Positions 52,379 to 63,088 of a DNA stretch of 64,000 nt are shown here, in pieces. The position numbers and the translations under genes were made by a program. Positions within the stretch are counted from its first letter, which is position 1, and each line of letters starts with the position of its first letter. Under the pieces are notes generated by a model. It searched no databases. It worked only from the letters and a program-made list of their open reading frames with translations, and had not been told where the DNA came from. Source of the DNA: an uncultured Granulosicoccaceae bacterium (GTDB lineage Bacteria > Pseudomonadota > Gammaproteobacteria > Granulosicoccales > Granulosicoccaceae); contig CALKXD010000144.1 in the NCBI GenBank assembly GCA_938003855.1, forward strand, positions 18,560 to 82,559, written 5' to 3'.

Positions 52379-52828
52379 TTAGGCATGCCTGTTCAGCAGT
52401 GCCTGTTCAAAATTGGTAAAGAACTTTTTTGCCAGACGCTTTGAGGTGCCTTCGACCAGACGGCTGCCAATCTGCGCAAGCTTGCCGCCAATGTCGATGT
52501 TGACTTCGTAGTTGAGCAGGGTGCCGCCTTCCTGCTCGGTCAGGTCGACTTTAGCGCCGCCTTTGGCAAAACCGGCAACCCCTGCATCACCGCTGCCACT
52601 GAGGCTGAACTGCGCAGGGCCGGCGCTGGGGTCGAGCTCTACGTTGCTGCCGAAACTGGCTTTGACCGGTCCAAATTTAACCACGACGGTAGCTTCCATT
52701 TCGGTGTCACTGTGCTTGATCAGTTCTTCGCAACCGGGAATGCTCTGCTTGAGAATTTCCGGGTCATTGAGAGCGGCGAATACGGTGTCTCGGTCGAGTG
52801 GGACCAGCACTTCGTCTTGTAAAATCAT
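52379..52828 (-). CDS. coxG: CoxG-like SRPBCC protein (CO dehydrogenase subunit G family)
   Basis: VPLDRDTVFAALNDPEILKQSIPGCEELIKHSD...GGKLAQIGSRLVEGTSKRLAKKFFTNFE. Confidence 0.9.
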   Translation of the reverse strand: MILQDEVLVPLDRDTVFAALNDPEILKQSIPGCEELIKHSDTEMEATVVVKFGPVKASFGSNVELDPSAGPAQFSLSGSGDAGVAGFAKGGAKVDLTEQEGGTLLNYEVNIDIGGKLAQIGSRLVEGTSKRLAKKFFTNFEQALLNRHA

Positions 52829-52993
52829 GGTTTAGTTTTGTCCGGGTTGATAGAGAGAATTGACGCATTGTATCGCAGTGGTGAGCGTCTGCGCGGTAGA
52901 AATCCTCGTCACTGAATGCGCGGTACACGGCGCCGAGGTGCGTCTGCCCTCAGTGCTTGTTTGCGGTAGCGGAGTATTTTTACGCACAGAGTT

Positions 52994-53833
52994 CTAGGCC
53001 TCCTGAGCCGGCTTGCGTCGGCGCAATTGAATTATTTCGGCCAGTATCGACAGAGCGATTTCCTGTGGAGTAACGCTGCCGATATCAAGACCCGCCGGCC
53101 CCTTTATTTGCGGCAGTAAGGAATCAGTCTGCCCTGTGGTTTTTAATTTTTCTTTCAGGAAATGCAGTTTTTTGGAGCTGCCAACAAAGCCGATGTATTT
53201 TGACTGCAGTTGCAGTGAAGTGACCAGCGCGTCGACGTCGCCGCTGCCCTGTGTGGCGATAACAATATAGCGATGCGGGTGGTTGGCTGTTATGTCAGTG
53301 TGTTGCGCATAGTGAGTGTTAATGTGTGCGGGTTGCTCGTCAGTGAGCTCATCGCTGACAACCGCAACGCTAAAGCCGAAAGAACCGCCCAGTCGTACCA
53401 GCATGGTTGCCACCGGGCTTGCACCTAGAACCAGTAGTTGCGGGCTCGACAAAACCGGCTCGACGAATATTTCCATCGATCCCTTGCTGGGGCACATATT
53501 GCTGGCGATCATCACGCCGTTGCTTTCCTCACCGGGATTGAGTCCTTGCTCGGCAAGCAGTTCCTCGGGTTGTATGGTGACAAAACGTGGCTCGCCGTCG
53601 GCAATGGATTTGATTGCCGCTTTAATCACTGCATGTCGTGCGCAACCTCCGCCGATCCATCCTTCTACAATAGCGCCATCTTTATTGATGATCGCTTTTG
53701 CACCCGGCTTGGCCGCAGTGACTGATACGGTACGCACCACGGTCGCCACGGCAAACTCATCGCCCCCGGCTTTCATCGTTTGCACGATGTCTGTCATATC
53801 TGCGTGTGCGTCGTTGCTGGTGGCCGATGTCAT
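52994..53833 (-). CDS. coxF: XdhC/CoxF-like molybdenum hydroxylase maturation factor
   Basis: FAVATVVRT, GWIGGGCARHAVIKAAIKSI, YIGFVGSSKKL, GPAGLDIGSVTPQEIALSILAEIIQLRR. Confidence 0.88.
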   Translation of the reverse strand: MTSATSNDAHADMTDIVQTMKAGGDEFAVATVVRTVSVTAAKPGAKAIINKDGAIVEGWIGGGCARHAVIKAAIKSIADGEPRFVTIQPEELLAEQGLNPGEESNGVMIASNMCPSKGSMEIFVEPVLSSPQLLVLGASPVATMLVRLGGSFGFSVAVVSDELTDEQPAHINTHYAQHTDITANHPHRYIVIATQGSGDVDALVTSLQLQSKYIGFVGSSKKLHFLKEKLKTTGQTDSLLPQIKGPAGLDIGSVTPQEIALSILAEIIQLRRRKPAQEA

Positions 53834-53839
53834 GATAAG

Positions 53840-55033
53840 TTACAGGCGCTCAAGGTGAGGTTCGAGTGCGGCCAGAGAGTCCAGTGTATTGGCCGCGGCG
53901 AACAGATCCAGCCAGGGCAGGGCGGCGGCCATGCCGCGTGCCACCGGTTCGTAGTCTTTCCAGCCTTTTAACGGGTTGAGCCAGAGTATTCGACAGCCAC
54001 GCTTTTTCAGCCGTTGCAATGCGCTGGCAAGGATCTCGGGCGGGTCGGTGTCGTAGCCGTCAGAGAATATAATAACCACGCTTCTGCCGTTAACCGTGTG
54101 GGCGGCGTACTGCTGATTGAATCGCTGTAGATTGCTGCCTATTTTAGTGCCGCCGCCGAAACCCTGAGCCATCAGTGACAGGCGGTTTACCGCTCTGAGT
54201 GTATCGTGGTCTCGCAGCGTATCACTGACCCGGACCAAAGACGTATGAAACAGATAGGCATCGGTGCGTCGGTCGTTACTGACCAGGCCTTTAAGAAAGG
54301 ACAAAAACACCCGGGCGTAGACGGTCATAGAGCCTGATACGTCGAGCAGCGCGACGATGTTTACCGGTCGATCCGGTTTATGGCGTTTGAAGAGTTCCAG
54401 CGGCTCACCGCCGTGGCTGACGCTGGCGCGCATCACGCGGCGCAGGTCCAGTAGTGCGCCGCGTTTTGCGGCACGCCGTCGCCGTGAGCGTCTGTCTCGC
54501 ATAGCGGCCGCAAGCTTTGCGGCCAGTTGCTCTGCGCGCTGCAATGATTCAGGTGTCATGAGTTCCCGCAGGTCAATCTTTTCCAGATTGGTGCTGGTAG
54601 ATGCGACCAGCTTGCCGTCACCGCTGTGTGCGGAGTCATTGTCGCCGTCGGGATTGTCGTCGGCTTCATCTGAGTCGCCGCTGGCGGACAACTGCTGCGT
54701 ACTGTCGACCCCGGGTTGAAAAGTGCTTTGTGATGTTTTTTTTGTGGCCGTGTTTGTCTCGCGCAAGGCCTGCCGCTCGCGGCCGCGATTAAACCAGTAC
54801 GCTTTGAATAGCTGGTCAAATTGCTGATAGTCATCGGCGTGGTTGACGCACACCGCTTTGCACGCCAGTCTGACGTCGTCACGGTCGTTGATGTCAATTA
54901 ACGACAGGGCGTTGAGCACGCTGGCCGACTCTGATACGCCAACCGCCAGGCCGTTGGATCTCAGGTGCGCCATAAATCCTGAGAAGCGTTCGCTGACACC
55001 GCTGGCTGTGGCAGGAAACCGCGTGGCCTTCAC
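53840..55033 (-). CDS. coxE: CoxE-like VWA domain protein
   Basis: VNIVALLDVSGSMTVYARVFLSFLKGL (MIDAS DVSGS), VVIIFSDGYDTDPPEIL. Confidence 0.9.
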   Translation of the reverse strand: MKATRFPATASGVSERFSGFMAHLRSNGLAVGVSESASVLNALSLIDINDRDDVRLACKAVCVNHADDYQQFDQLFKAYWFNRGRERQALRETNTATKKTSQSTFQPGVDSTQQLSASGDSDEADDNPDGDNDSAHSGDGKLVASTSTNLEKIDLRELMTPESLQRAEQLAAKLAAAMRDRRSRRRRAAKRGALLDLRRVMRASVSHGGEPLELFKRHKPDRPVNIVALLDVSGSMTVYARVFLSFLKGLVSNDRRTDAYLFHTSLVRVSDTLRDHDTLRAVNRLSLMAQGFGGGTKIGSNLQRFNQQYAAHTVNGRSVVIIFSDGYDTDPPEILASALQRLKKRGCRILWLNPLKGWKDYEPVARGMAAALPWLDLFAAANTLDSLAALEPHLERL

Positions 55034-55914
55034 GCCACCACCTTACCAACGAGTCGCTGTGTAATTTCTGTCGGGATGGCGGCCATATCGGATTGCGTTT
55101 TCAGCAGGCAAACCAGTGTTGCCTGGAGTTCGTGCGGGTTATCAGAGAGGTTGGCAACGCCGAGGCCTGCGACCGCTGCGGCCCAGTCGAGCATTTCCGC
55201 AACGCCCGGGTTTTTGTCGAGTTCTTCTTTGCGCAGCGCCTGCACAAAGCCGACGATCTGCTCTGCCAGCCGTGCGTCGATACCCGGCAGCCGTTTGCTC
55301 AGAATGGCCAACTCGGTGGTCGCGTTCGGGTATTCGACAAAGGTATAGAAACATCGCCGACGCAGCGCATCGGACAGATCCCGGCTGCCGTTAGAGGTAA
55401 GAATCACGTGCGGCCGGGTGACCGCTTCTATCGTGCCCAGCTCCGGTATCGATACCTGGAAGTCAGATAGAACTTCCAGCAGGTAGGCTTCAAATTCTTC
55501 ATCAGCACGGTCGATCTCATCGATCAGCAGCACCGGTGCCTGGGTTTGCGTAATGGCTTCCAGCAGCGGTCTTTTTAATAAAAACCGATCTGAGAAAATT
55601 TGCTCTTCGACTTGCTCGGCGGACAGATCTTTGTCGGCGGTGGCGCGTACACTGAGCAGCTGGCGCTGGTAGTTCCATTCATAGATGGCGGTACTTGCAT
55701 CGAGCCCTTCATAGCATTGCAAGCGGATCAGGCGGGTAGCTTTGAGCTGAGCCAGCATCTTTGCAACTTCGGTTTTACCAACCCCCGCTGCTCCTTCAAG
55801 AAGCAGCGGACGCTGGAGTTTCACTGACAGGTGCAGGGCCATCGCCAACTCATCGGTGGCGATGTATCCGGTCTCTGCCAGTTCGCATTGCAATGATTTC
55901 CAGCTCATAGACAA
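55030..55914 (-). CDS. coxD: CoxD-like MoxR family AAA+ ATPase
   Basis: RPLLLEGAAGVGKTEVAKML (Walker A), VLLIDEIDRADEEFEAYLLEVLSDFQ, VILTSNGSRDLSDALRRRCFY. Confidence 0.91.
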   Translation of the reverse strand: MSMSWKSLQCELAETGYIATDELAMALHLSVKLQRPLLLEGAAGVGKTEVAKMLAQLKATRLIRLQCYEGLDASTAIYEWNYQRQLLSVRATADKDLSAEQVEEQIFSDRFLLKRPLLEAITQTQAPVLLIDEIDRADEEFEAYLLEVLSDFQVSIPELGTIEAVTRPHVILTSNGSRDLSDALRRRCFYTFVEYPNATTELAILSKRLPGIDARLAEQIVGFVQALRKEELDKNPGVAEMLDWAAAVAGLGVANLSDNPHELQATLVCLLKTQSDMAAIPTEITQRLVGKVVA

Positions 55915-55947: not shown

Positions 55948-58368
55948 TTAATCATGTAAACCGAGTTCATTGGCTGTTTTCCAGATACGCCAGTGATCAT
56001 GCGGCATCTGTGTATGCGTTAGACCAAAGGGTTTGAAGGCATCGTTAATGGCGTTGGAAAATGCCGGTACACCCCCGACGTTGGGGCTTTCACCGACGCC
56101 CTTGGCACCGATAGGGTGGTGCGGACTGGGGGTTTCGGTGAAGTCGGTCTGGTAGTTCGGTGTTTCCCAGCTGGTTGGAATAAAGAAGTCCATCAGGGAA
56201 CCGGTCTTGACGTTGCCGAGTTCGTCGTAGGCAATCTCCTGACCAAGTGCAATAGCCAGCGCTTCGGTGAGTCCGCCATGCACCTGCCCTTCAATGATCA
56301 TCGGGTTAATGCGGGTGCCACAGTCGTCTAGTGCGTAGAAACTGCGGATACCGGCGACGCCGGTATCGACGTCTATATCCATCACGCAGATATAGGCACC
56401 GAACGGGTAGGTCATGTTCGGCGGGTCGTAGTAGCTGACCGCTTCCAGGCCGGGTTCTACGCCGGGGATCGCTTGCGTATAGGATGCAAAGGCGATTTCC
56501 TTCATGGTCTTGAAGCGCTCCGGTGCACCTTTGACGATAAAGCGATCGACTTCCCATTCGACGTCGTTGTCGTGAACTTCAAGCAGATAGGCGGCGATCA
56601 TCTGTGCTTTGGCGCGTATCTTACGGCCGGCCATCGCGGTTGCCGCACCGGCCACCGGGGTTGAGCGTGAGCCATAGGTACCGAGGCCGTAGGGTGCGGT
56701 GTCGGTGTCGCCTTCTTCGATGGTGATGTCGTCAGCCGGGATACCGATTTCTGTCGCCAGTATCTGTGCAAAGGTGGTGGCGTGACCCTGCCCCTGAGAA
56801 ATAGTACCCAGTCTGGCTATCGCCGATCCGGTCGGGTGAATGCGTATTTCGCAGCTGTCGAACATACCCATGCCGAGGATGTCGCAATTTTTAACCGGGC
56901 CGGCACCGACGATCTCGGTGAAGTGACACAGGCCGATGCCCATCAGTGAGCGGGTTTCACCGGCCTTGAACTTTGCTACCTGTGCAGATTGCTCGGCACG
57001 CAGGCCTTTGTAGTCGACCGCCTCCAGTGCTTTGTTCCAGGCGGTATGGTAGTCGCCTGAATCGTATTCCCAGCCGAGTGCCGAGTGATACGGGAATTGA
57101 TCTTTGCCGATAAAATTAATTGACCGCAGCTCGGCTGCGTCCATGTTCAGTCTGATCGCCAGTACTTCAATCATGCGCTCTATAAAGTAGGCTGCTTCGG
57201 TGACACGAAATGAACAACGGTACGCCACGCCGCCCGGCGCTTTGTTGGTATAGATGCCGTCCACTGCCAGATAGGCGGTGGGGATATCGTATGAGCCGGT
57301 GCAGATGTTCATAAAGCCGGCCGGGTATTTGGTCGGATCGGCGCAGGCATCAAACGCACCGTGATCAGCGGTAGTGTGGCACCAGAGACCTAGAATTTTA
57401 CCTTCTGCGGTTGCCGCGATTTTACCCTGCATCCAGTAGTCACGGGCAAAGGCGGTCGAGGTCAGGTTTTCCATCCGGTCTTCGACCCATTTGACCGGTT
57501 GGCCCGTCACGATAGAAGCAACGATGGCACAGACATAGCCGGGGTAGACGCCGACCTTGTTGCCGAAGCCGCCGCCGATATCGGGGGAAACTACGCGTAT
57601 ATTGTGCTCTGCAATGCCCGACAGTAGTGAGGCGACTGTGCGTACCACGTGGGGTGCCTGAAAGGTGCCCCAGAGTGTCAGCTTGCCATTGACCTTGTCC
57701 ATCGAGGCAACCGCCCCGCAGGTCTCCAGTGGACAGGGATGCGTGCGGTGGTAGTAGACCATTTCCTCCGCCACAACCGGCGCGCTGCTGAGTATGGCTT
57801 CGGTGGATTCTTTTTCGCCTTGCTCCCAGGTAAAGATATGATTGGGGTGGCGACGTGGACCGTGTGCGCCTTCGGTGGCGTCGGCGATGTCTTCACGCAG
57901 GATGGGGGCGTCGTCGAGTTCGGCTTTGAATGGATCAACCAGAACCGGCAGTTCCTCGTATTTGACAACCACCAGATCGGTGGCGTCAGCGGCGATATAG
58001 CGATCTTCCGCAATCACAAACGCGACTTCCTGCCCCTGAAATAATACTTTTCCATCGGCCAGCACCATTTGCTTGTCACCGGCCAGCGTTGGCATCCAGT
58101 GCAGGCCTAACGGCTCTAGATCTTTGGCGGTGAGTACCGCAACGACACCCGGCAGTGCCAGCGCTGCGGAGGTATCGATTGACAGCACGCGTGCGTGGGC
58201 GTGCTGCGAGCGGACAAAATCACCAAACAACATGTCGGGCATTTTGATGTCGTCGACATAGTTGCCTTTGCCCTGTGTAAAGCGTGCGTCTTCTACCCGT
58301 TTGCGAGAGCTGCCCAGACCTTTCAGCGCGGCCTGGCGTTCTTCCATCGTTTTTGCTTCGACGCTCAT
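55948..58368 (-). CDS. coxL: Aerobic CO dehydrogenase (form I) large, molybdopterin-binding subunit
   Basis: Xanthine dehydrogenase-family Mo subunit; active-site loop AYRCSFR (encoded at 57205-57225) matches the form I CoxL signature [28 protein letters not shown]. Confidence 0.93.
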
Positions 58369-58868
58369 GCGGCTGTCTCCGGTTGATTAAGCTCCGCGGC
58401 GGCGGCCATGATTGATTTAACGATATTCTGGTAGCCGGTGCAGCGACACAGATTGCCGGCGATGCCCATACGCACTTCTTCCTCGGTGGGGTTTGGGTTT
58501 TCTTTCAGCAGGCGGTGTGCACGAGTGATCATTCCGGGGGTGCAGAAGCCGCATTGCAGGCCGTGGTGCTCTTTGAATTTTTCCTGCAGTACGTGCAGTT
58601 TGTCGGGGTTGCCGAGTCCTTCGATAGTGGTGATCTCAGCGCCTTGTGCCTGAATGGCGAACATCGTGCACGACTTCACCGAGCGACCGTCAATGTCTAC
58701 TGTGCAGGCACCGCAGTGCGATGTTTCGCAGCCGATGTGCGGGCCGGTAATTTCAAGTTGCTCGCGCAGTACGTGTATTAACAGCTCTCTGGGTTCCGCG
58801 CGGGTTTCGACGGTCTGTCCGTTAACCGTTAAGGTAATGGTTTCTTTTGTCATGGGTATTTCCTGCAT
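58365..58868 (-). CDS. coxS: CO dehydrogenase small (2Fe-2S) subunit
   Basis: [22 protein letters not shown] and [10 protein letters not shown]...[12 protein letters not shown] iron-sulfur motifs. Confidence 0.93.
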
Positions 58869-58888: not shown

Positions 58889-59746
58889 TCAGGCGCGCGA
58901 CCAGGCGGTTTCCAGAGATCGCTTGAGAATGATGGCCGCGGCGTGCTTTTTGAATTCTGCCGGTCCGCGGTTATCTTCGACGGGTTCAATATCACTGATG
59001 CATGACTGCACGGCGTGGGCGATGCTGTCTGCGGACACCCCGGATTGCATCAGGTGTGTTGATGCCGCGTCGCAGAAGACCGGTGTGTCTGCCAGATTGG
59101 TCAGCGCAATGGCGGCGTGTGAGCACGAGCCGTCGGCTGCCTTGGTCAGCAATACGGCAGCGGCAGCGGTAGCGTAGTCACCGATTTTTCGCTTTTGTTT
59201 TTCGTAGGCGTAGCCGCCGGTGCAGGTCGGGAAGGAAACCTCGGTGAGTATTTCCAGATCGTCGCGTGCGGTGAAGTATGCCGCCTCGTAGAAGTCGCGT
59301 GCCTTGACGTCACGCGCGCCGCCGGGGCCATGCAGGGTAAAGCTTGCATCCAAGGCCTGCATCAGCGCCGGCATGTCGTTGCCCGGATCACCGTTGGCGA
59401 CATTGCCGCCGATAGTGCCCTGGTAACGAATCTGTGGATCGGCGATTTGCAGCGATGTCTCTTTAACGATCGGGGCGGCCAGCTGCAGTTCGGCGCTGCC
59501 GATTAACTCGGCCTGGGTGGTCATCGCGCCGATGCGAACGACGCCGTCAGCGACATTGATGTGCTTGAGGGTGTCGATCGCTTTCAGATCAACCAGGTGT
59601 TCGGGCATTGCCAGTCGCAGCTTCATCATCGGGATTAAGCTGTGACCGCCGGCGATCACCCGCGCGTCCTCACCGAGCTCGCTGAGCAGACCGACTGCTG
59701 CGGCCAGAGAGTCGGGTTGGTGGTACTCAAAGCGTCCTGGAATCAT
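58889..59746 (-). CDS. coxM: CO dehydrogenase medium (FAD-binding) subunit
   Basis: VIAGGHSLIPMMKLRLAMPEHLVDL and YQGTIGGNVANGDPGNDMPALMQAL FAD-binding motifs. Confidence 0.93.
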   Translation of the reverse strand: MIPGRFEYHQPDSLAAAVGLLSELGEDARVIAGGHSLIPMMKLRLAMPEHLVDLKAIDTLKHINVADGVVRIGAMTTQAELIGSAELQLAAPIVKETSLQIADPQIRYQGTIGGNVANGDPGNDMPALMQALDASFTLHGPGGARDVKARDFYEAAYFTARDDLEILTEVSFPTCTGGYAYEKQKRKIGDYATAAAAVLLTKAADGSCSHAAIALTNLADTPVFCDAASTHLMQSGVSADSIAHAVQSCISDIEPVEDNRGPAEFKKHAAAIILKRSLETAWSRA

Positions 59747-60285
59747 TCATTTTCCCCCTGAATTGATAGTGTCGGAACAGACTCTGAGACGATACCAGAG
59801 GGCGGCCGTATTGGAAGCAAGGATGCACGAGTGAAGGAGTGGATTCACCAATGAGGCAATTTGCACGACCGTCGTTGGTGACAGAGGTCGTTATAGGTAA
59901 CTGAATAATATAGGGAATATGGAGTTTTTTATTTTCTGCTGAGCGATATCCGCGTTGCTGCAATTCATTCGTGATACTGTCGCGTCTGAGAGCATGGCCC
60001 GGGTGAAAGATCAGTCTGCCGTGTCGGTAATTAAGTGGATGTGACAAGTTGAGTTCTGCTACGGCACTTGTCCCGGTGACTCGTGCGCTGTTCCAGACTG
60101 ATCGGCATCAGGTCATTGCTGCTTGCCCGGAGTACGCACAGAATGCCGCAAATGGGGTGTCTCCGGTTTGCCGGGTCTGGCTTAGTGTTTCGCCGGTTTC
60201 GAGTGTCTTCGAGGTGCGCTGTCAGGAGGGCGGTCGATTGCTGTTGCGTTTCACAGCATTGGGCAGTTGAAGGGGCGTGCCGGCG

Positions 60286-61491
60286 TCAGCGGCTGTTGGT
60301 GTCGGACGTTTGCTTGGCAGCATTCAGTACTTCAATTAAACCGATCACGCGGTTGCGGCTGACCGGAACGCTTGTCAGCTTGGGAGTGTTCCGGAACAGA
60401 CATACCCCGGTTTCCTTACGTTTTTCGAAAGCGTCAATGGCGTCAATATTGACCAGATAGCTGCGGTGGGTGCGGTGGAAGTTGACCGTGCTCAGGCGTT
60501 GTTCGGCTTCTGTGATTGACCAGGGACAGAAGCGCACGCCGTCGCTGGTGTACAGGTGTGTGTAGTGTCCATCGGCACGGATGGCAGCCACATCGGCGCT
60601 GTCGGTGAAGGCAATTTTTTTGCCTTGTTCATACGGGATCTGTGCGTCTCCGGTCTCTGCGGGTCTGCCAGTTTTGCTTGATTCAGTGCTGTCGGCGACC
60701 GGTTCTGTGGTCGCGGCTTCCGGGTCGGACGATTCATGCGGTGTCGTGTCTGTGGGGACGAGGTCGCCGACAGCTGTGTTTTGCGTGCTGGTTAGAAACG
60801 ACGTTGTGGCCAGTAGAAATGACCCGCAAATCAGGAATGAGGCGACGGTGACGGCAATCGCCAATGTACTGTTGGCCAGTGATATCGTCACAGGCTGCCC
60901 GCTGCTGTCCGGCAGGAAATGGGTGCCGAACATGGCACTGTAGTGAACAGCCACGACGGCGAAACCAAACACTATTGAGCCCATCACAATATTTTGTCTG
61001 GATCGATGGCCGTAGGCTACCCGGATAGCAGCAACACCGGCAATGGCCGCGACCAGTAATGCGGTCACCACCGACGCCGTTGAGAACACTGGTATCACGC
61101 CACGTATGCCGAGCATGCCGATGTAGTGCATCACGATCACACCAGCGCCGAGAATTAAGCCGGCCAGTGTCAGCTGGAACGGGGTTCTCGGTGAGAAGTG
61201 CAGCATCAACAAGGCCACGCCGACGACCAGAATTGCGATCAGTGCAGAGCTGAGTGTCTGGAGTAAGTCGTAGTAGATCGGGATCGGGAATTTGTGCGCG
61301 AGCATGGCGACAAAATGCATCGACCAAATACCCCCACCGAGTATAAACGCTGACATCACGACCAGTGCTTTACGCCGGTAGTCGGGCTGAGCCGCAATAT
61401 TGTTGGTAAGAGCGAGGCCAGTGAAGGCGGCAACCAAAGAGACAGTGATAGAGGCAAGTACCAGGAAGGTATCATGCGTGTAGTTGATCAC
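60286..61491 (-). CDS. coxC: MHYT-LytTR membrane sensor/regulator (CoxC/CoxH-like)
   Basis: Multi-TM N-terminus with MHFVAM, MHYIGM and VHYSAM motifs; C-terminal LytTR region IRADGHYTHLYTSDGVRFCPWSITEAEQRLSTVNFHRTHRSYLVNIDAI. Confidence 0.88.
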   Translation of the reverse strand: MINYTHDTFLVLASITVSLVAAFTGLALTNNIAAQPDYRRKALVVMSAFILGGGIWSMHFVAMLAHKFPIPIYYDLLQTLSSALIAILVVGVALLMLHFSPRTPFQLTLAGLILGAGVIVMHYIGMLGIRGVIPVFSTASVVTALLVAAIAGVAAIRVAYGHRSRQNIVMGSIVFGFAVVAVHYSAMFGTHFLPDSSGQPVTISLANSTLAIAVTVASFLICGSFLLATTSFLTSTQNTAVGDLVPTDTTPHESSDPEAATTEPVADSTESSKTGRPAETGDAQIPYEQGKKIAFTDSADVAAIRADGHYTHLYTSDGVRFCPWSITEAEQRLSTVNFHRTHRSYLVNIDAIDAFEKRKETGVCLFRNTPKLTSVPVSRNRVIGLIEVLNAAKQTSDTNSR

Positions 61492-61739: not shown

Positions 61740-62378
61740 TTAGGCAGTTTCACGCTCCTTTTCTACGAGTTCGTTGATGAGATCGATAATTTGCGCGTGG
61801 CCACCGGCCATGGAGACAGTCGACAGGTATTTGCCGTTGACGACGACTGTCGGTACCGCGTTGACACGTGATTCCTGTGCAGTCCGCATGGTTTTACGAA
61901 TTTCTGCATTGACCGCAAACGACTCCATGGTCTCTTCCATTTTGTCTGCATCGATACCCAGCTCTCCGGCGAACTTTGAAATGCTCTTGCGATCTCGCAG
62001 TGGGCGTCTTTCGCGGTGGATGGCATTGAACAGCGGCTCGAAAAATTTCTCGGTCACGCCCATCAGTTCAGCGGCGTAGTAGGCTTCAGAGTGGGGGGTC
62101 CAGCTGCGATTGAGCGGTGGTGCGTGACGAACAAAGTCGACGTCATCGGGCTTGCTGGCGGCCCACTCATTGATAGCCGGCTCGAAAGCAAAGCAGTGAG
62201 GGCAGCCAAACCAGAAGTACTCCAGAACTTCGATTTTGTCCGGGTTTGCGGTGGCCTGGGGTGGCTGCAGCACCAGGTAGCGCTCTGCCTGGGCCAATGC
62301 GGGTGCTGTGGCTGCCATAGGAAGTGACAGGGCGGTGGCAACTTTAAGGCCGGTCCCGAGGAATTGTCTTTTATTCAT
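61740..62378 (-). CDS. dsbA: DsbA-like thiol:disulfide interchange protein
   Basis: Signal MNKRQFLGTGLKVATALSLPMAATAPALA; thioredoxin-fold FWFGCPHCFAFEP (CPHC); cis-Pro NAVPTVVVNGKYL. Confidence 0.92.
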   Translation of the reverse strand: MNKRQFLGTGLKVATALSLPMAATAPALAQAERYLVLQPPQATANPDKIEVLEYFWFGCPHCFAFEPAINEWAASKPDDVDFVRHAPPLNRSWTPHSEAYYAAELMGVTEKFFEPLFNAIHRERRPLRDRKSISKFAGELGIDADKMEETMESFAVNAEIRKTMRTAQESRVNAVPTVVVNGKYLSTVSMAGGHAQIIDLINELVEKERETA

Positions 62379-62500
62379 AGGCTTCTCTAATTTATGTGGA
62401 AGACGTGGCTGTACTGAAATACTCAGCCGCCGCCGTGTGGCTTTTGCCGTACGAGTTGTTAACGAAGGAGGTAATTATTTGATTGCACCTGCCGGTGGCG

Positions 62501-63088
62501 TCAGGCAACCTGCTGTTCGACGAATTCGATCAGTTTAGTCCGGTCGACGTGAAAATTGTTGTACACCACAACACCGGCCGGGTCGATCAGTATCAGCCAC
62601 GGAGTGCCGCCGGTGCGGTAGCCCTGCATGGTCGCCGGCATGGTGTGATTTTCTTCATCACCTGGATCATGACCCATAACGATTGGCAGGTCATAACGCA
62701 GTTGCAGCTTGCGGACGTCATCCTGTGTGTTGCTTCGATACCCTTCGAAAACCGTCTGAATGGCAGCTATGGCTACTTTAGGGTGGTCGTGAAAGCGTTC
62801 GGAGAAAGCCTGCAGTGTTGGAAAACCACTGCTGTGACAGCCCGGGCACCAGTTTTGAAAACACTTTAAGAAGACCCATTTCCCGCGAGACTCAGTGACT
62901 GAAAAGTGACCGGGCTTGCCGTCTGCGTCAATCCAGTAGTCAAGTTCGATTTCCGGTGCCTCGTAGCCCTCGATGCCGCGTGTGTTCTGCGCCCGGGCGT
63001 TGCCGCTTAACGCTGTCGACAAAGCCAGGGTGCTGGAAAGAGCTCCGGCCTGTTTTAGGAATTTGCGGCGACTGTCGGGGTTGGCCAT
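62501..63088 (-). CDS. Tat-exported thioredoxin-like/redoxin protein
   Basis: SRRKFLKQAGALSSTLALSTALSGNARA Tat-like signal; FQNWCPGCHSSGFPTLQAFSERF (CPGC); GTPWLILIDPAG. Confidence 0.85.
   Translation of the reverse strand: MANPDSRRKFLKQAGALSSTLALSTALSGNARAQNTRGIEGYEAPEIELDYWIDADGKPGHFSVTESRGKWVFLKCFQNWCPGCHSSGFPTLQAFSERFHDHPKVAIAAIQTVFEGYRSNTQDDVRKLQLRYDLPIVMGHDPGDEENHTMPATMQGYRTGGTPWLILIDPAGVVVYNNFHVDRTKLIEFVEQQVA

Follow-up and report, generated by a model that had tools for sequence, protein, structure and literature searches.

The MHYT-LytTR protein encoded at 60286-61491 (-) is likely to be the CoxC regulator of its bacterium's CO-oxidation operon, acting through a predicted three-repeat operator before coxM. 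The gene lies in a stretch of 64,000 nucleotides from an uncultured Granulosicoccaceae bacterium (the window, below), and, as the preliminary description of this DNA had placed it, is directly upstream of coxMSLDEFG, a form I CO dehydrogenase operon. The protein is an ordinary, well-placed CoxC homologue, whose architecture, ligand and mechanism are already known in a relative (Durante-Rodriguez et al. 2024, PMC11347149). New here are the predicted operator and promoter layout, which open both the register of the published operator and the sign of regulation to checking. The MHYT-LytTR CO switch has been tested so far in one organism and at one promoter, and is here extended to a gammaproteobacterial family. 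The operator model is found again in Rhodobacterales, Rhizobiales and Granulosicoccaceae, with many marine members among these, and two additional operators are predicted from it in the model strain OM5; the operator position makes repression versus activation a concrete question, and the operator sequences could be of use for CO biosensors.

In the proposed reading, the seven-helix MHYT domain is embedded in the membrane, copper is most likely held by the conserved Met and His residues of its three motifs, and CO would bind at this copper site, by inference from OM5 CoxC. A flexible linker would join it to a cytoplasmic LytTR domain, predicted to bind three direct repeats (59825-59875, (-)) just upstream of the predicted coxM promoter. 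CO would alter the grip of CoxC on these repeats and so switch coxMSLDEFG, its predicted main target.

The coxC gene, its product and its relatives

The relevant genes and protein segments in the window are as follows.

52379-55914 (-), maturation genes coxD, coxE, coxF and coxG (AAA, VWA_CoxE, XdhC and COXG domains)
55948-58368 (-), coxL, form I Mo-Cu CO dehydrogenase large subunit (TIGR02416, AYRCSFR)
58365-58868 (-), coxS, [2Fe-2S] subunit (PF01799, PF00111)
58889-59746 (-), coxM, CO dehydrogenase FAD subunit (PF00941, PF03450)
60286-61491 (-), coxC, MHYT-LytTR regulator, homologue of A. carboxidovorans CoxC (open frame, Pfam domains)
60775-61470 (-), membrane part, seven predicted helices (residues 8-239; AlphaFold model)
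61303-61320 (-), MHYT motif 1, MHFVAM (residues 58-63), with M58, H59 and M63 invariant in 56 sequences
61114-61131 (-), MHYT motif 2, MHYIGM (residues 121-126), with M121 and H122 invariant and M126 present in 53/56
60931-60948 (-), MHYT motif 3, VHYSAM (residues 182-187), with H183 invariant and the leading Met replaced by Val
60331-60618 (-), LytTR DNA-binding domain (residues 292-387; PF04397), its fold matching AgrA/ComE LytTR domains

The form I assignment of the operon is given by the CoxL translation, which scores 1394 bits against TIGR02416 (cut-off 991) and contains the form I motif AYRCSFR. The coxC-coxM gap of 539 bp is the largest of 71 measured (median 148), and coxB is not adjacent to coxC. 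Upstream of coxC (61740-63088) are genes for DsbA-like and thioredoxin-like proteins with export signals, a pair found near coxC in none of 80 related loci, some of which are short on that side.

The coxC frame starts with GTG and encodes 401 aa. The three MHYT motifs and the C-terminal LytTR domain, first read from the letters alone, are confirmed by Pfam matches well above cut-offs (PF03707, E 3e-29; PF04397, E 3e-16), by an AlphaFold model and by Foldseek; these are the only two domains that Pfam finds, with no PAS domain. The model, built on 52 sequences (mean pLDDT 88.6), consists of seven long helices, of which helices 2, 4 and 6 carry the motifs at their ends, then a low-confidence linker (about 240-280) and a mostly-beta C-terminal domain similar to the LytTR domains of AgrA, ComE and 3d6w. 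Foldseek returned no significant match outside LytTR, and no sequence relative of the MHYT domain was found in the PDB. This is the sole MHYT gene in the source genome, which also encodes a second LytTR protein.

Across 56 sequences M58, H59, M63, M121, H122 and H183 are invariant, with some variation at M126 and M187. Residue 182 (60946-60948) is Val in 51 of the 56; it is Val in the Rhodobacterales/Granulosicoccaceae subfamily and Met in OM5-type proteins, such that motif 3 is VHYSAM here versus MHYTAM in OM5 CoxC; the metal site of the Val182 subfamily may thus have one ligand fewer. We also note that Cys322 of the LytTR domain (FCPWSI, 60526-60528) is invariant in the 56 sequences, OM5 CoxC and a cox-free Sinorhizobium meliloti homologue among them, and a redox role for it is possible.

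The closest characterised system is CoxC of A. carboxidovorans OM5 (Q9KX27), to which the window protein is 32.6% identical over 402 columns. Both have a seven-helix MHYT domain with three motifs, a linker and a LytTR domain, both are encoded next to coxMSLDEFG, and both have the same invariant ligand residues; the kinship with CoxC that had been proposed stands. The likeness had been drawn to CoxH of OM5 as well, and this holds for its MHYT-LytTR architecture within the cox cluster, but OM5 CoxH is the more distant of the two (34% and 25% identity in two pieces), and its gene follows coxG instead of preceding coxM. The annotation divides OM5 coxH into two overlapping frames (L133:23212-24412), which indicates a frameshift or sequencing error. 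The statement that ligand and mechanism were not experimentally settled is out of date, both having been largely settled for A. carboxidovorans CoxC in 2024 (PMC11347149). That protein represses PcoxB in E. coli, and 2% CO relieves the repression. The isolated LytTR part binds the promoter (apparent KD about 25 nM) but shows no response to CO, whereas in membranes with the full-length protein DNA binding is lost on CO and O2 reverses the effect; the CO effect disappears with EDTA and comes back with Cu2+ only, and sensing is through the MHYT domain (all PMC11347149). The idea that the window protein is a one-component CO switch is supported by homology to a CO- and copper-dependent repressor.

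Two other known systems share parts of this design. RcoM-1 of Paraburkholderia xenovorans, like CoxC, is a one-component CO-responsive LytTR regulator of cox genes that uses three direct repeats (TTCNNGCA, about 20-21 bp period; cited in PMC11347149), but it is a soluble heme PAS sensor and an activator, whereas window CoxC lacks a PAS domain. NbdA and MucR of Pseudomonas aeruginosa (MHYT-GGDEF-EAL) have, as window CoxC does, an MHYT membrane sensor domain with proposed gas sensing, but they act through c-di-GMP turnover instead of DNA binding, and the gas to which they are linked is NO, not CO (cited in PMC11347149).

The nearest named relatives of window CoxC are in Granulosicoccaceae genomes (57-67% identity), followed by those of Pelagibius, Hyphomicrobiales and many Rhodobacterales (42-51%). 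The gene is immediately before coxM in 70 of 80 loci, and its linkage to the CO dehydrogenase operon is close in two classes. Among 36 Granulosicoccaceae genomes, coxC is present in 19 of the 23 with form I coxL (some coxL partial) and in none of the 13 without it (Fisher P 1e-6, a value too small given shared ancestry and with several assemblies incomplete).

A predicted three-repeat operator before coxM

Direct repeats of the type TCGCATTTCGTGC were first seen by side-by-side reading of coxC-coxM gaps, and the operator tests are not fully blind in that the motif was first noticed in this gap of relatives. The region 59747-60285 had been proposed as the target of the LytTR domain, and it does hold a conserved predicted operator at 59825-59875 (-), identified by leave-window-out models and consisting of three direct repeats spaced 18 and 20 bp.

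59863-59875 (-), predicted operator repeat R1, ACGACGGTCGTGC (leave-window-out model, best site in window)
59845-59857 (-), predicted operator repeat R2, GCCTCATTGGTGA (leave-window-out model)
59825-59837 (-), predicted operator repeat R3, CCTTCACTCGTGC (leave-window-out model)

A three-repeat model made from ten Granulosicoccaceae relatives, with the window left out, gives 23.1 bits at 59875 (-), the best score on both strands of the 64 kb (next 15.9), and a pooled model, likewise without the window, gives 24.9 bits (next 17.9). Allowing up to 3 mismatches, no second copy of the triple occurs in its genome. When the window was scanned by itself for direct repeats and promoters, nothing rose above chance, and a model from alphaproteobacteria only did not single out the site (38 of 200 shuffles as good), indicating that a Granulosicoccaceae-based model is needed. 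The published CoxC repeat consensus is TTNNNGC (PMC11347149). Applied strictly it fits none of the three window repeats, the cores of which are YTSGTGM-like, and strict TTNNNGC triplets at 17-24 bp are absent from the window and almost absent elsewhere, so this consensus appears too narrow for the group. An inverted half-site, CACCAACG (CACGAACG in relatives), directly preceding R1 (59872-59881 and 59845-59854) is retained by most Granulosicoccaceae.

Similar sites are present in other genomes. Granulosicoccaceae gaps have three repeat copies of similar quality. In 57 of 58 alphaproteobacterial-type coxC-coxM gaps, a model iterated on these gaps finds two strong repeats at a distance of 20-21 bp, in most cases accompanied by a weaker third. 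A search of 17 whole genomes and one plasmid with a strict two-repeat pattern gave exactly one match in each of 11 genomes, and none with the reversed pattern used as control; all 11 matches are about 100 bp before coxM, including five genomes in which coxC is elsewhere. Two family members with form I cox but no coxC match have no such site before coxM, and in one of these CoxM is 86% identical to that of the window. No site was found upstream of coxC itself in 12 genomes, and autoregulation through these repeats is therefore unsupported.

The pooled model, from whose training OM5 was left out, was applied to 29 kb of pHCG3. Its three highest-scoring sites share the cox strand and lie after coxH and before coxI (27.5 bits), between coxC and coxM (25.4 bits) and before coxB (22.6 bits); the maximum over 40 Markov-shuffled copies, with a slightly narrower spacing range, is 21.2 bits. 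A three-repeat operator with a period of about 20 bp is common to OM5 CoxC and, as a prediction, the window, and is also predicted in the OM5 coxC-coxM gap. The best triple of the OM5 cox region (L133:24426-24480), just after coxH, is about 357 nt before the annotated coxI start, and a GTG with a good ribosome site is closer to it, so that the coxI start may be misannotated.

At OM5 PcoxB, A. carboxidovorans CoxC binds three direct repeats overlapping the predicted -35 (PMC11347149); as deduced from the primers of that paper these are TTACCGCC, TTTGGGCA and TTTGCGGC. The pooled model places the repeat cores at TTCATGC, GTTGGTG and TTTGGGC, 21 and 20 bp apart (L133:12174-12227), such that the middle published repeat is the third in the new register. 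The first mutation in the paper, by its primers, also alters the conserved G of the second repeat in this register, and the published binding losses would hence fit either.

Promoter geometry, sign of regulation and alternatives

Two putative promoter elements of coxM are placed by comparison with relatives.

59811-59816 (-), predicted -35 of coxM, TTCCAA, a weak match (TT at +8 after R3 in relatives)
59789-59794 (-), predicted -10 of coxM, TATCGT (TANNNT 30-32 nt after R3 in relatives)

The TANNNT sequence is 30-32 nt after R3 in 13/13 Granulosicoccaceae gaps (at most 5 in 2000 shuffles) and TT is at +8 in 11/13, although pairs of these gaps share only about 30% identity in the 16-nt spacer that separates the two. 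In alphaproteobacterial gaps TANNNT peaks at the same distance (17/57). OM5 PcoxB, in the pooled-model register, has TTGATG at +8 and TATCGT at +32 after the third repeat; before OM5 coxM there is TTGAAT at +8 with no TANNNT at 30-32, and before OM5 coxI neither element is at the expected spacing. R3 of the window ends 8 nt before the predicted -35, and if both predicted elements are right it would be centred near -48 with the -35 uncovered. The window operator thus has an activator-like position relative to the predicted elements. With its YTSGTGM core it precedes coxM and would end before the predicted -35, whereas the published OM5 operator overlaps the predicted -35 of PcoxB. In the literature searched, no paper on coxM transcription starts was found.

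By homology, repression relieved by CO is on balance the expected action of window CoxC, with CO-dependent activation or a dual mode as a lesser possibility in view of the promoter geometry. The leading alternative, which we regard as rather unlikely, is that CoxC is a CO-dependent activator or a bidirectional regulator at PcoxM, aiding RNA polymerase beside a weak -35 as RcoM does. This would account for the position of R3 and the -10 at fixed distance in 13/13 relatives despite the divergent spacer, for the poor -35 hexamers and for the same spacing at OM5 PcoxB in the pooled-model register, and most LytTR regulators do bind upstream of the -35 and activate (PMC11347149). However, in E. coli PcoxB is less active when OM5 CoxC is present, and CO makes this protein lose its DNA binding (PMC11347149), and the -35 and -10 are themselves predictions. 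A broader form of the proposal, offered tentatively, is that CoxC proteins act mainly at coxM via a conserved, activator-placed three-repeat operator, activating or bidirectionally, and that OM5 would have three operators (coxB, coxM and coxI region) with the PcoxB repeats re-registered as above.

The identification of the window protein as the CoxC regulator of the operon is supported by the domains, topology and invariant ligand residues shared with OM5 CoxC, by coxC-coxM adjacency, coxC/coxL co-occurrence, the operator-model ranking and the genome-unique triple, and by the single strict-pattern match before coxM in each of 11 genomes and the absence of such a site in two family members with cox but no coxC. 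Counted against it are the identity of only 32.6%, the lack of any strict TTNNNGC fit, the second LytTR protein, and the absence of an adjacent coxB, which is beside OM5 coxC and at whose promoter OM5 CoxC was tested. It is improbable that, in regulating cox, the protein responds not to CO but to NO, to O2 or to a redox or copper signal: other MHYT proteins are linked to NO, O2 reverses the CO effect on OM5 CoxC (PMC11347149), motif 3 lacks the leading Met of OM5 and Cys322 is invariant, but the linkage to CO dehydrogenase operons in two classes and the absence of coxC from family members without form I coxL argue for CO. Very improbable is that the repeats, a sequence prediction in a genome with a second LytTR protein, belong to another regulator and CoxC acts elsewhere, as in type and period they match the LytTR operators reported for CoxC and RcoM (PMC11347149), are found in genomes that carry coxC and are missing upstream of coxM in two coxC-free relatives.

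Variant arrangements of coxC

Several genomes depart from the common arrangement. In Roseovarius sp. 217 (L090:7992-12414), and likewise in L070, L072, L073 and L097, the CoxC homologue is away from cox and directly precedes phage- or gene-transfer-agent-like portal, protease and capsid genes, and the operator remains with coxM on another stretch. Two family members (G380 and G390; L157 and L156) keep form I cox without coxC, and another way of cox regulation must therefore exist there. Finally, a genome of the same class (G001; L012:1471-2977, L155), in which no CoxC-type operator was found at the form I-like cox operon, encodes upstream of that operon a 245-aa MHYT protein without LytTR, adjoining a 240-aa protein that resembles a V4R-type sensor; the two could possibly constitute a split version of the CoxC switch.
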